From Bacillota bacterium (GTDB taxonomy: Bacteria > Bacillota > JAAYKD01), in the NCBI GenBank assembly GCA_012522585.1, contig JAAYKD010000021.1:1-40427 (forward strand): 40,427 nucleotides of DNA, read 5' to 3'. Below, one piece after another: positions 3,900 to 29,213 of the stretch. Under the pieces are notes generated by a model, which made no database searches, was not told the DNA's origin, and worked only from the letters and a program-made list of their open reading frames with translations. Each line of letters opens with the position of its first letter. The first letter of the stretch is position 1. The position numbers and the translations under genes are program-made.

Positions 3900-3974
3900 G
3901 CCAGTGTAGCGCAACGGCAGCGCAACTGATTTGTAATCAGTAGGTTGTAGGTTCGAATCCTATCACTGGCTCCA
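3900..3974 (+). tRNA. tRNA-Thr (anticodon TGT)
   Basis: The cloverleaf is complete. The acceptor stem is GCCAGTG/CACTGGC with discriminator T and an encoded CCA. The anticodon stem ACTGA/TCAGT carries loop TTTGTAA, giving anticodon TGT (reads ACA). The T arm holds GGTTCGAATCC. It is transcribed with the tRNA-Gly 10 bases downstream. Confidence 0.97.
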
Positions 3975-3984
3975 TTTTTTTTGC

Positions 3985-4059
3985 GCGGAAGTAGTTCAAT
4001 GGCAGAGCGTCAGCTTCCCAAGCTGAATGTTGCGGGTTCGAATCCCGTCTTCCGCTCCA
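3985..4059 (+). tRNA. tRNA-Gly (anticodon CCC)
   Basis: The acceptor stem is GCGGAAG/CTTCCGC with discriminator T and an encoded CCA. The anticodon stem TCAGC/GCTGA carries loop TTCCCAA, giving anticodon CCC (reads GGG). The T arm holds GGGTTCGAATCCC. It is the second and last gene of the tRNA operon. Confidence 0.97.
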
Positions 4060-23519: not shown

Positions 23520-25436
23520 CTACATGCGGTTAGGTGCGGGTATGCCCAGCACTGTTAAGGCGTCTTTTAAAGCTGTCTTATATAATTCGACTAGGCTCAA
23601 ACGGAAGGCGCGAATATCTTCTCGTGGGGCATTTAAGACTTGAGTTGTTTCGTAGAAGCTCATAAAAGAAGCAGCTAACTGATAGACATAATCGGTCAGT
23701 TGTGAAGGCGCTAGGGCTTCGGCTGCCTTGGCTACTGCTTCAGGCAACTCGTAGATGCGGCGAATCAAATCTTTTTCTGGCCCTGTTAATTCTAAATCGG
23801 CCGGTAGGCTAGGATTGGCCTTGATATTTTGATCTTTGGCTCTTTGCAAGATATTGTTGGCTCTGGCGTGGGCATATTGTAAATAGGGCCCTGTATTGCC
23901 CTGCATGTTGAGGGCATCGTTAAAGTCGAAGACGATGAGAGAATTCATATTATAGCGAATCATGTAATAGCGAATGGCCCCGATGGCAATTTGGGTGCCT
24001 AGCTTTACATTCTCTTCGTTAGAATGTTCGGGATGACGCTTGGCCACTTCTAAAGTAGCTCTTTCTATGGCCATGTTGACTAAGTCATCGGCTTTGACAC
24101 CGATGCCGCGCCTGCCAGCCATGGCGTAGATACCTTTTTCGTCCTCTTCGTCTACACTGACTCCCAGTTCCTTGGCAGCAGTTGCCGATAAGGCGACGAC
24201 TTCGTAGTCGAAGTGGATGGAGTTTTTCGCTTCTTGGCTGTAGCCTAATTTATCTAAGGAAAGGCGCAGAACATCTTGTAAGTATTTTTGTCTGATGTCG
24301 ATGACATTGATCACTTTGTCTGCTTGGCCATATAAATCGCTTTCTTCACCATTATAGGTGTCGGTTGTCTCTAAGACTTGCCCGTTTTCTTGAGTGATAT
24401 AGGGCCTGTATTGGAAATCCAGACCTAAAATGCCAAACTTCCACATCTGGTAAGCGATGTCTTTGGCCACGTAGGTAGCTGTGCCATTGGAGCGGACTAA
24501 AACTTTATCGGGGTTTTCCAGATGGCTAAAGCCTTCCACATCATCTAATTTGATCACCCAGCAACCGGCGTTAGGGCCTTCGGTTTCAAAGGCCATACCG
24601 TCGTTGTCTTTGAGGTGGTTGAAAGCGTGAGTCCAGAAACCTAGATGGAGTATGTCGCTTTCCCAAGTGAGCAAATCGTAGAAGATGCCAAAGCGAGCCA
24701 TGGTAGCTAAATGACAATTGACTATCTTGGTGGAAATTTCCTTGGCCAAGGTTGCTCGAGGGTTGCCGCCCCTTTCAATATCATGGAGGACTTCTCTTTG
24801 TTTTTCCTTTAGTTCAGGTTCCACTAAATAGCGGTCGTTGATCTCAGTGTACAAATCCCAGCAGAAATAATCGTAGGTTTCTTTCTCTTGATCCCAAACG
24901 GGGTTTAAAAGTTCCATGCCTACAACTATATCTGCGACGGCTGTGCCGGTGTCGTCAATATAATTTTGCACTTCTAGTCGGTAGCCTGTGCTTCTTAAAA
25001 GGCGAGCTAGGGTATCGCCCAAGCAGGCATTGCGCAAATGGCCGATGTGAGCTGCTTTATTGGGGTTGATATTCGTATGCTCGATGACGATTTTGCCTTT
25101 GGAGTCTTTTTCAGCATCGATAGAATAAGGCGCTGCTAAAAGGCCTTCTATAATATGAAGGTAGTTGTAGTGTAAATTGATATAGCCTGGAGCTGTTATA
25201 TTTATGCTTTCAATTGTTTCAGGCAGCAAAGGTTTGAGGGCTTCGCCTAGATCGTTAGCAATATCTAAAGGTCGGCGGCGCAAAACTCGAGCCAGTTTTA
25301 AAGATAAAGGGCTGGATAAATCTCCGAAGTCCTTATTGGGGGGAAGCTCCCAGCTGATTTCATCTATGTCATAATCTAAATCGAAAGCATTTTTTAAAGC
25401 TTTGGCAGTCAGGGTTTTTAAATCTGTAATATTCAT
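23520..25436 (-). CDS. argS: Arginyl-tRNA synthetase
   Basis: A 638-residue class I synthetase that attaches arginine to tRNA-Arg. It has the N-terminal additional domain, the HIGH-type signature AHIGHLRNACLGDTLARLL, the Rossmann core and the C-terminal DALR anticodon-binding domain ending with GIPAPNRM. The usual KMSKS-like motif is degenerate: the matching region reads AMAGRRGIGVKADDL. Loss of a canonical KMSKS is known in many ArgS proteins, where another lysine compensates. It is longer than the E. coli enzyme (577). The ATG start lies after GGTGG and the gene has its own strong promoter; there is no room for a T-box leader. Confidence 0.95.
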   Translation of the reverse strand: MNITDLKTLTAKALKNAFDLDYDIDEISWELPPNKDFGDLSSPLSLKLARVLRRRPLDIANDLGEALKPLLPETIESINITAPGYINLHYNYLHIIEGLLAAPYSIDAEKDSKGKIVIEHTNINPNKAAHIGHLRNACLGDTLARLLRSTGYRLEVQNYIDDTGTAVADIVVGMELLNPVWDQEKETYDYFCWDLYTEINDRYLVEPELKEKQREVLHDIERGGNPRATLAKEISTKIVNCHLATMARFGIFYDLLTWESDILHLGFWTHAFNHLKDNDGMAFETEGPNAGCWVIKLDDVEGFSHLENPDKVLVRSNGTATYVAKDIAYQMWKFGILGLDFQYRPYITQENGQVLETTDTYNGEESDLYGQADKVINVIDIRQKYLQDVLRLSLDKLGYSQEAKNSIHFDYEVVALSATAAKELGVSVDEEDEKGIYAMAGRRGIGVKADDLVNMAIERATLEVAKRHPEHSNEENVKLGTQIAIGAIRYYMIRYNMNSLIVFDFNDALNMQGNTGPYLQYAHARANNILQRAKDQNIKANPSLPADLELTGPEKDLIRRIYELPEAVAKAAEALAPSQLTDYVYQLAASFMSFYETTQVLNAPREDIRAFRLSLVELYKTALKDALTVLGIPAPNRM

Positions 25437-25484
25437 CTCATACCACCCTAAATAAAATTGATTTTTTCAATAATCTCGGTTCGA

Positions 25485-25513
25485 ATTATAACATAAGGAC
25501 ACTTAAATGTCAT
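25485..25513 (-). promoter_or_regulatory. Promoter of argS
   Basis: On the minus strand ATGACA (25513-25508) and TATAAT (25490-25485) are separated by 17 bases, with an extended -10 TGT. The leader would be about 40-45 bases, too short for a T-box. Confidence 0.75.
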
Positions 25514-25608
25514 GCAAAGATAAGAAAGTGCCAAAAGACCTTGTTAAAAAACAAAACTCAAGAAAAGCAATATAAGTTGTAATAATGGTCTGAAGAGTCT
25601 TCTTTTAT

Positions 25609-25668
25609 GTTACAGAAGTGTAACAATAGGGCCAATCAAGCTAATTGTTTTACACTTTAGTTACACTT
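25609..25668. promoter_or_regulatory. Cluster of TTACACTT/AAGTGTAA octamers upstream of the surface-protein promoter
   Basis: AAGTGTAA lies at 25616-25623 within the palindrome GTTACAGAAGTGTAAC. TTACACTT occurs at 25650-25657 and again at 25661-25668, exactly 11 bases apart and just upstream of the -35 box. The spacing, close to whole helical turns, suggests binding sites for a regulator. The protein that would bind is unknown. Confidence 0.5.
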
Positions 25669-25680
25669 AGGCCAAAACCC

Positions 25681-25709
25681 TTGTCAATAAAATAGGCCTT
25701 TGTTATACT
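25681..25709 (+). promoter_or_regulatory. Strong promoter of the large surface-protein gene
   Basis: TTGTCA (25681-25686) and TATACT (25704-25709) are separated by 17 bases, with an extended -10 (TGT before TATACT). Transcription would start near 25716 and leave a leader of about 165 bases. Confidence 0.8.
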
Positions 25710-25717
25710 AGCATTGA

Positions 25718-25850
25718 TATCGGAGTAGGAGGCTTTGTAGCTTGAGGCGATTGCAGACTCTATAAAACATTTATAAAAGTGCAATCAAAGGTCGAGTCTA
25801 AAGACGAAGAAATTCCCCGATGAAGTTCTTGCACATAAGTGTAAGAAGAC
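25718..25850 (+). promoter_or_regulatory. Structured 5' leader with possible pseudoknot
   Basis: Pairings seen by eye: P1 TATCGG (25718-25723) with CCGATG (25817-25822) closes the domain. P2 GATTGCA (25749-25755) pairs with TGCAATC (25780-25786), and P3 TATAAA/TTTATA (25761-25775) caps it. The internal-loop strand GACTC (25756-25760) can pair with GAGTC (25794-25798), forming a pseudoknot. A final hairpin TTCTTGCAC/GTGTAAGAA (about 25826-25846) precedes the AAGGAGG site. It matches no riboswitch consensus I know. It may stabilise the mRNA or regulate translation. Confidence 0.55.
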
Positions 25851-25880
25851 ACACAAGAAATTATGAAGGAGGAAAAAACC

Positions 25881-28800
25881 TTGAAAAAGTTTTTATCCGT
25901 TTTATTAACCATGGCAATAGTCATGACCCTGTTCACCGGAACAGTCTTGGCTGCGCCAACCTTACAAACTGTAACATTATCTAAATCGACTATTGTTGAA
26001 GCGGTCGATACAGAAATTAAAGTAACTGTTACCACTACCGGTACTCCATCTTCCGTTTATTGGGCCATAATTAAAGGTGATACCTATGATGCTAATAATA
26101 TTTTAGAATCTGGCACTGCCGGTTTAGTCAACAATGAGTTTTACTTAAACGTATCCCGCTTGACCGCCGGTACGGGTGAAGTACAACAAGTTTACAGTGT
26201 TTTTGTAGAAGATGATAACACAGGTGTAGTTGCAACTTCTATAAAGGCATTGATTACCGTTCGCCACGCTATGACTGTTAATGGTAGTACTGCTGTACCT
26301 GTAGTAAACCTTAATGAAGCCGTTGCTTTTGAAGGCGTGATTACCAACGGTAAAGATTTGTATGTAGCCTTGTTGCAAGGAACCAATGTTGTGGCTTCCA
26401 TGCAAGCCAACGCAAATGGTGAATTCGTTCTCAACAGAACTTTTACTGATGCTGATCTTTATTCTATCGGTGTAAGAAAAGGCGCTACAGGCCCATTCAC
26501 TAATTATTTAAACATTGATTTCACCCCTAAATCTGATACTAAGATAAATAACACAACTGTTCCGACAGCAACGCGCGATGCTGAAAATGCTAGCTTTACA
26601 GCAGTAGTAACAGTTGCCCCTGTCGCTAATGGAGCAGCTTTGCCTGCGGATGCTAACACATTCGTAGAAATGATCCTTCCCAACGGCGATAAAGTAAAAA
26701 TGAATATTGCTAATATCGGCGCTGAAGATCATAAGTATGCCTATACTTTTGCTCAAGGCACATTAAAAGCAGGTACTTATAACATTACTGCTGTAACATA
26801 TAATGCAGCCGTAAGCGGAAAAGCAAAACTTGCTGACATTAAACGTGTTGATGATTTTGTAACACTTCGCAAAGCAGAAGGCAGTTTTACTGTTGCTGAT
26901 AATGCTAATAGCATGGTAGTAACAGTTAGACCTGGTGAAAAACCAGCTGGTGCATTTATAGCAGGTCAAGGTGTAACAAATGGTGCTTTTGAGCAAGTCG
27001 TCCCAACAGCCGTTGCAAACTCTCAAGGTGTTGAGGTAGTTGTATCTGCTCCTGCAACTAAAGAGATTGCTAAAGTTGTCTATACAGTTAAAGGTCCAAT
27101 CAAATCTTCGATTAATCGTACTTCAGCCGCAGCTAATTTAACAGCAGGCCTTGGCAATACCTACACCAGAGTAGAGACTTTTGACATTACTCATGGCGGT
27201 ACTATTGATATTGCCGGAACTGTAACGTATACTGATAAATCAACCGAAGTATTTGAAAAAACAATTAAAGCTAATGGTTATGTTGTTGAGTTTAACGAAT
27301 ATGAATTGGGTAAAGTCGGTGACGAAATTGAGTTGAAAGCTGTTATTAAAACAACTGCCGGCGTTCCTGTAAATAATAAAGAAGTAATTTGGGAACCTTC
27401 AACTCCTGCTTTCTATTCTTATAATTCTTCTGATAAAGTTTATTCTACCTCTCTAACTACTCTTGGTAATACTAAAGTCAGCGGAACAGCAACTAACATT
27501 CAAGACGGAACCTACAGTCTTAAAGTTAAATTAGGTGCATTTGCTACCGTTACTATGAGAGCTATGAATGGCGGCCTAGTATATGCTGAAGCTGAAGCGG
27601 TAATTTACGGTGATGATGTTTATACAGCTGAAGTTACAGGTCAATTGGTAGCTACTGTTGCTGCCCAAAAACTGACAGTTGCTATGTATAATGCTAACGG
27701 CACAAAAATCACCCCAAACAAAATTCAAATCGATGAGCTTGGAAAAAACATTGTAAATGAAGCTTCCTTCACCGATTTAACCATTTCTGACAGCAAAATC
27801 ACCTTCAATCCGTTAACCACAGGAACTTTTAACTTAATGTTAGGTACCGATAGTGGTAATAAGATGGTTGTCGTCCCTGTTACGGTTGTAGCTCCCGAAT
27901 TAGCTAGTGTAACAATTAACGATGAAGAGTCCTCGACTGTAACCGCAGGTTTGCGCGAAAAAGTTGTTGTTACTTTTGAAAACATCACTGCAGGTACTTT
28001 AACCTTTACCAATACAAATATTTATGATGCTAACTATGTTGTAAACGATATTGGTATTTATACCTCTGCAAATGCAACAACTCCCATTGCACCTGGTGGA
28101 ACCATCGCAATTGCAAATAAAGTAGCTACTTTCTATGTTGATGCTATTGCTAAACGTGGAGAAGAGAGCAAAATTGCTGTTAGAGCTAAAGCTGACCTTG
28201 CGGCAGCTAATGCAGTTACAGTGACTACTTTAAAAGTTGTTCCCATCGTTGTTGATACCGATGATGTCGAAGGTTTAGTAGTTGATGCGAATGTTGATCT
28301 TTACTTGACCGTTACTGATGCTCGTGGTAATGCCCTTGAAGGCTTAACTGTCTCTAGTGCTACAACTGCAGGCAACTTAGCAGGTAACAATACTGCAGTA
28401 ACAGACGAAGATGGTAAAGCGGTTCTTAATGTAAAACCTGTTTCTGTTGGTACTGTTACTTTGGCAGTTGGCGACGGCACAAACACCTATGACGTTGAAT
28501 ACTATGTAGATAAAAACAATGTCACTTGGTTCAGCGATGTTGTAGTATCTTTACCCGTCGGTCGCGATGTTACAGGGCCTGTTATCCATCTTGAAGATGT
28601 CTATACAACAAGCAGTTCCTCTTATACCGTTTCTTTCCAAGTTACCGATACCAGCAAAATTGCTGAAGTGTGGGTTAACGATGAGAAAGCCTTAGTTCGT
28701 CCTGATAATACAGTTCGCTTTGCAATAACCGGTTTAGCTACTGGAATTAATGAGTTTGAAGTATTAGCATATGACGTTGAAGGTAATGGTACAATAGCAA

Positions 28801-29213
28801 CGTTAGTTATCGAATATCTCAAACCTTCCAAAGTTGAATTGACAATCGGTTCAACCGAAGCTACCAAAGACGGCGCACCTATCGATGGGATGGATCAAGC
28901 TCCTGTTATCAAAAATGGTCGCACCTTCTTGCCTGTCCGCTTTGTATTACAAAACTTGATGGGCGGCTCCATGGAATGGGATGCAGAAACTCAAACAGTT
29001 ACTTCTGTAGTTAACGGCAATACCATTAAAATGGTAATCGGTTCTAAAGTTGCATTCGTAAATGGCGACGAAGTTGCTCTGTTGGAAGCTCCTTATATTG
29101 AGCCTGCCACCGGTCGCACCTTAGTTCCCCTCCGTGAAATCATGGAAGCCATCGGAATCCAACTGGATTGGAACGATGTAACTCGCACAGTAACCATCAT
29201 TATTCCTCAATAA
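25881..29213 (+). CDS. Large secreted surface protein with Ig-like domains and C-terminal stalk domain
   Basis: I place the start at TTG 25881, 8 bases after AAGGAGG. The track ATG at 25863 lies upstream of that site and overlaps it as a false start. The 1,110-residue product begins MKKFLSVLLTMAIVMTLFTG, a clear signal peptide with cleavage near VLAA. The middle is Thr/Val/Ala-rich beta-sandwich-like sequence; one part (about residues 790-876, YLTVTDARGNALEGL) resembles Big_1-type Ig domains. The C-terminus (about 983-1110) is a copper-amine-oxidase-N-like stalk domain with NGRTFLPVRFVLQNL and TGRTLVPLREIMEAIG. No SLH domain, LPXTG or transmembrane tail is seen. The strong promoter, long leader and T-ending codon choice suggest an abundant S-layer or wall protein; this is inference. 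Confidence 0.8.
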   Translation: MKKFLSVLLTMAIVMTLFTGTVLAAPTLQTVTLSKSTIVEAVDTEIKVTVTTTGTPSSVYWAIIKGDTYDANNILESGTAGLVNNEFYLNVSRLTAGTGEVQQVYSVFVEDDNTGVVATSIKALITVRHAMTVNGSTAVPVVNLNEAVAFEGVITNGKDLYVALLQGTNVVASMQANANGEFVLNRTFTDADLYSIGVRKGATGPFTNYLNIDFTPKSDTKINNTTVPTATRDAENASFTAVVTVAPVANGAALPADANTFVEMILPNGDKVKMNIANIGAEDHKYAYTFAQGTLKAGTYNITAVTYNAAVSGKAKLADIKRVDDFVTLRKAEGSFTVADNANSMVVTVRPGEKPAGAFIAGQGVTNGAFEQVVPTAVANSQGVEVVVSAPATKEIAKVVYTVKGPIKSSINRTSAAANLTAGLGNTYTRVETFDITHGGTIDIAGTVTYTDKSTEVFEKTIKANGYVVEFNEYELGKVGDEIELKAVIKTTAGVPVNNKEVIWEPSTPAFYSYNSSDKVYSTSLTTLGNTKVSGTATNIQDGTYSLKVKLGAFATVTMRAMNGGLVYAEAEAVIYGDDVYTAEVTGQLVATVAAQKLTVAMYNANGTKITPNKIQIDELGKNIVNEASFTDLTISDSKITFNPLTTGTFNLMLGTDSGNKMVVVPVTVVAPELASVTINDEESSTVTAGLREKVVVTFENITAGTLTFTNTNIYDANYVVNDIGIYTSANATTPIAPGGTIAIANKVATFYVDAIAKRGEESKIAVRAKADLAAANAVTVTTLKVVPIVVDTDDVEGLVVDANVDLYLTVTDARGNALEGLTVSSATTAGNLAGNNTAVTDEDGKAVLNVKPVSVGTVTLAVGDGTNTYDVEYYVDKNNVTWFSDVVVSLPVGRDVTGPVIHLEDVYTTSSSSYTVSFQVTDTSKIAEVWVNDEKALVRPDNTVRFAITGLATGINEFEVLAYDVEGNGTIATLVIEYLKPSKVELTIGSTEATKDGAPIDGMDQAPVIKNGRTFLPVRFVLQNLMGGSMEWDAETQTVTSVVNGNTIKMVIGSKVAFVNGDEVALLEAPYIEPATGRTLVPLREIMEAIGIQLDWNDVTRTVTIIIPQ

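Follow-up and report, generated by a model that had tools for sequence, protein, structure and literature searches.

What might a long, structured 5′ leader be doing in front of a single large surface-protein gene? We addressed this question at a locus from a bacterium of the Bacillota (lineage JAAYKD01), in a window of 40,427 nucleotides that comprises the whole stretch of DNA analyzed; positions are those of the window, and features lie on the forward (+) strand unless stated. The gene (25881-29213) encodes 1,110 amino acids from a TTG codon, with a signal peptide, Ig-like stretches and a C-terminal Cu_amine_oxidN1 (stalk) domain; no SLH domain was found in the protein. Its codon adaptation (0.701) is the highest of the 32 genes of the window, the ribosomal range being 0.62-0.79, and the product is probably a large, abundant, S-layer-type protein. 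The comparative sample contains four genomes of the class and only one close relative, G001, which belongs to a different genus within the family. G001 encodes a full-length ortholog, 37% identical (41% in a second comparison), and shares the neighborhood: upstream lie a divergent argS and then an epimerase gene, and ispD follows downstream. A second genome of the sample, G002, has argS without the surface gene and ispD neighborhood. The argS gene of the window (23520-25436, − strand) has its own promoter, ATGACA-17-TATAAT (25513-25485), in the upstream region 25437-25680; elsewhere in the window, two adjacent tRNA genes occupy 3900-4056.

The limits of the leader can be placed from its flanking signals. 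A sigma-A promoter lies at 25681-25709 (TTGTCA, 17 nt, extended TATACT; 10 of 12 matches, with TG before the −10 hexamer), and the G001 leader is preceded by a promoter of the same layout, TTGCGA-17-TATACT. In both genomes, the promoter spacing points to the first base of the element as the transcript start, in the window at about 25716, 7 nt after the −10 hexamer. The conserved GATATCGG begins at this very position and opens the G001 leader too. The earlier note on this DNA had named a transcript start beyond 25760 as evidence that would speak against its structural proposal; the promoter consensus instead puts the start at about 25716. At the other end, the ATG at 25863 chosen by the ORF finder stands directly before the Shine-Dalgarno sequence AAGGAGG (25866-25872) and is probably not the start: both the Shine-Dalgarno spacing and the ortholog, whose GTG start falls at the same MKKFLS residues, favor TTG 25881 as the start codon. 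The predicted leader is therefore about 165 nt long, as the earlier note had it, and that of G001, also 165 nt, sits in the same place within the same gene order. An upstream ORF (ATG 25820) was set aside as well, its counterpart being absent from the ortholog sequence when read by eye.

The mRNA would open with a folded RNA domain of 107 bases, whose closed part spans 25718-25822. In both leaders, two unpaired nucleotides (GA in the window, 25716-25717) precede the outer stem P1, so that the 5′ end, as placed by the promoter, lies close to a stem. P1 pairs TATCGG (25718-25723) with CCGATG (25817-25822), the outermost pair being U-G. Within it, a conserved Shine-Dalgarno-like GGAGG (25728-25732) contributes its GGAG (25728-25731) to P1b by pairing with TTCC (25813-25816); the 3′ strands of P1b and P1 (TTCCCCGATG, 25813-25822) are both engaged in the minimum-free-energy (MFE) fold. 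P2 is irregular: much of its 5′ side (25733-25745) pairs with 25792-25809 in the MFE folds of both leaders, in a register that differs between the two. P3 is a 7-bp stem (25749-25786) formed by GATTGCA (25749-25755) and TGCAATC (25780-25786), and it is capped by P4, a 6-bp apical hairpin of TATAAA (25761-25766) and TTTATA (25770-25775). After the closed domain come a second hairpin of 9 bp (25826-25847; arms 25826-25834 and 25839-25847), an A-rich, unstructured stretch of about 20 nt, the Shine-Dalgarno sequence and the TTG. The Shine-Dalgarno sequence lies outside the structured domain and, across the predicted ensemble, does not pair with the leader; it is open in the leader-only fold and pairs weakly with the coding start once the coding region is included. 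The strands of every nested helix named in the earlier note (outer stem, 7-bp stem, 6-bp apical hairpin and 9-bp hairpin) are present, and all these helices appear in the MFE fold of the window. Its view that the layout is more organized than a random leader is likewise borne out: only 2 of 200 dinucleotide shuffles fold as well (z −3.03), and the whole leader gives z −2.98 (p 0.004).

Comparison with the sister genus indicates that this fold is under selection. The G001 leader folds at z −4.46, with 0 of 500 shuffles as good, and a covariance model built from the window only finds it in a whole-genome search at E 2.7e-8. Over the 110-nt domain the two sequences share 56 letters (51%), yet all 23 nested pairs derived from the window are kept in G001, five of them with both letters replaced and another five with one. 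P1 keeps 6/6 pairs, two with one-sided changes; P3 keeps 7/7, one of them compensatory; and P4 keeps 6/6 with four changed on both sides, an apical stem almost wholly rewritten. Compensatory changes of the kind that the earlier note had proposed to seek in homologous leaders are thus found in P3 and P4. When the 3′ partners are shifted by 1-3 columns, pairing falls to 33-51% of cells. With only two sequences the covariation statistics are weak: 14 of 500 shuffles do as well as the real alignment. Because the 23-pair alignment, taken from the window-model search, is fitted to the structure, two independent checks were made. Among 3,000 simulated relatives, in which conserved columns were held and other letters permuted, 10 recover the core pairs of the window as well as G001 does at 1-nt tolerance and 21 do so exactly. 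A consensus fold of the unfitted, ungapped alignment gives z −2.4 against column shuffles (8/500); the structure-fitted alignment gives z −6.4, and no conserved fold was detected in the upstream and coding-start control regions (z 0.45 and 0.20). In G001 the second hairpin is rewritten (GACCCTC-N7-GAGGGTC) but keeps its position some 20 nt ahead of the Shine-Dalgarno sequence; since a MAFFT alignment yielded no consensus fold for it, its conservation rests on position and separate folds. At the level of sequence comparison, these results confirm that the leader fold is real, conserved between two genera and previously unclassified.

Two blocks inside this drifting fold do not drift: GATATCGGA-NNN-GGAGG and TCAAAGGTCGAGT are identical in the window and G001, and are unpaired or partly paired. 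The second (25785-25797, 13 nt) is the domain's longest run of letters identical to the ortholog. Such blocks exceed the needs of a generic stabilizing hairpin, which hints at a specific binder or a tertiary contact and may give these identical unpaired letters a role in leader function. The earlier note had further proposed a 5-bp pseudoknot between GACTC (25756-25760) and GAGTC (25794-25798). Both candidate strands are present, and the P2 pairing of 25733-25745 with 25792-25809 competes with the pseudoknot in the nested fold. In the window the pseudoknot would be marginal, as freeing the strands costs 2.6 kcal/mol against a duplex worth 5.0, before any pseudoknot penalty. In G001 it is energetically poor (7.1 kcal/mol against 1.4, again before the penalty), the best nested fold uses the bases otherwise, and the register (AAC.A.C against GAGTT) retains 4/5 pairs, one compensatory (G-C to A-U), with one A-A mismatch; an alternative five-pair register (AACTT) lies three bases on in G001's own numbering. 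We regard the pseudoknot as possible but unproven in these predicted folds.

The element appears confined to this family. The window leader has no match in Rfam at the gathering score, and a search of both leaders at a relaxed E-value returned no relevant match, in agreement with the earlier note, which could assign it to no known class. A DNA search of 100 relatives returned nothing beyond short matches outside the window, among them the ortholog leader of G001. The window-only model (R1) and a two-sequence model (R2), run with strict filters over 399 genomes of the phylum, in which the class is poorly sampled, recovered only the two family members, with one copy per genome. A weaker R1 match (E 5e-4 for one genome), in front of a methyltransferase gene in G023, was judged to be chance; seven of its pairs are broken and the conserved core is missing. 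R2 found nothing in the small classes of G021 and G092. An exact-core pattern scan of the GTDB genome collection, covering records other than those near the window's genome, gave 19 matches in unrelated phyla, about the number estimated for chance, none of them matched by R1. In G002 and G021, more distant genes for stalk proteins have leaders that fold no better than expected (z −0.88 and −0.01) and contain no recognizable element. Such a gene in G021 (G021:C44; L055:1055-1238) has a long leader of its own, about 180 nt, that matches no Rfam family and has ordinary folding energy.

On balance, we lean toward a lineage-specific structured leader whose role is to stabilize the mRNA of an abundant S-layer-type protein and to support efficient translation. 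Decay that depends on the 5′ end proceeds in the Firmicutes through RppH and then RNase J. Transcription would begin with the element's first base and P1 would draw in the 5′ end after two nucleotides, so that this decay would be denied a single-stranded entry point. The rod-like domain and the second hairpin would fold on themselves and leave the A-rich stretch of some 20 nt open before a strong, accessible Shine-Dalgarno sequence. A constitutive, stabilized and strongly translated mRNA fits the top codon adaptation of the gene and its surface-protein architecture. Among the suggestions of the earlier note, an mRNA-stabilizing element appears to fit best, with its sealed 5′ end, open ribosome site and codon usage, and sealing of the 5′ end would be the most economical mechanism and one of a known kind. 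With only two sequences, stabilization and high expression are functions that we infer for the leader. Two features sit less easily with a plain stabilizer: the strictly conserved 13-nt block, and the masking of the Shine-Dalgarno sequence when P1 is blocked in G001, which a regulator could exploit.

These features bear on the other readings. The identical blocks within a drifting fold keep binding-based explanations, the main rivals, in play, and one is a ligand-responsive leader, in which the blocks form a pocket and the ligand alters P1/P1b or the pseudoknot, and then translation or stability; we consider this unlikely. A closed domain of several helices, where loop blocks that are strictly conserved separate covarying stems, is what a riboswitch might look like, the competition between P2 and the pseudoknot for GAGTC recalls a switch, and S-layer-homology genes have been reported to carry a riboswitch candidate, the SLH motif, upstream (PMC6429828). 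However, no terminator was seen in the leader and no U-run follows the second hairpin. With P1 blocked, the G001 leader masks the Shine-Dalgarno sequence and the window leader does not; the two thus show no on/off platform in common, and a shared masking switch was rejected. Riboswitch aptamers tend to be found ahead of multiple genes and in multiple taxa, whereas this element occurs once per genome, before one structural gene, with no other example among the 399 phylum genomes. With neither a known class nor a conserved expression platform found, the resemblance to riboswitches suggested in the earlier note gained no positive support.

Protein binding, to which we give similarly little credence, would have the surface protein (by autoregulation) or an RNA-binding protein recognize the TCAAAGGTCGAGT/GGAGG rod, or, on the STAB-SD model, the 30S subunit bind the 5′ GGAGG. 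It would explain two strictly conserved blocks among drifting stems, and the Shine-Dalgarno-like GGAGG lies 13 nt from the transcript start, as in STAB-SD leaders (PMC4113751). Yet in both leaders most of this GGAGG is predicted to be base-paired (its paired positions have an unpaired probability ≤0.31), which disfavors 30S binding, and there is no known candidate protein. A broader version is also doubtful in our view: an undescribed, family-confined class of cis-regulatory RNA whose pseudoknotted domain would set S-layer protein synthesis through a ligand or protein bound to its TCAAAGGTCGAGT/GGAGG core. As for an ordinary leader whose similarity reflects shared ancestry and whose fold is incidental, with no further function, only two related genomes are compared and their promoter and coding flanks are alike too. 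The flat controls, set against the domain in both fitted and unfitted alignments, and an apical stem that still pairs 6/6 after being almost wholly rewritten already disfavor this reading, and we judge it very improbable.

The stabilizer reading has precedents. Stem-loops at the 5′ end are established mRNA stabilizers in B. subtilis aprE and E. coli ompA, according to references given in PMC3997798 and PMC7509114. As in the window, the 5′ end of these leaders lies ≤2 nt from a stem, the strong ribosome-binding site is open and the product is an exported or envelope protein that is highly expressed, as our gene would be; the window domain differs in being larger and carrying strictly conserved internal blocks, and its stabilizing role is predicted. 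A large leader stem-loop has been proposed to protect the L. acidophilus slpA mRNA (PMC6482533), a likeness by description, in a different phylogeny and protein family. The SLH motif (Stav et al., 2019; PMC6429828) is, by description, likewise a candidate cis-regulatory RNA before S-layer-type genes, some in Clostridia, whereas the protein studied here has a stalk domain in place of a detectable SLH domain. STAB-SD, known from B. thuringiensis cry3A, shares a Shine-Dalgarno-like GGAGG near the leader 5′ end of a highly expressed gene (here presumed so) but has it unpaired, whereas ours is, by prediction, largely taken up by P1b pairing.

If our reading is right, this class of four sampled genomes contains an evolution-supported structured leader on a surface-layer-type gene, forming a compact 5′ stabilizer cassette with conserved positions open to mutation. 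S-layer-type genes far from the lactobacilli would then carry specialized leaders too and, if the conserved core binds something, the element would be a new regulatory RNA.
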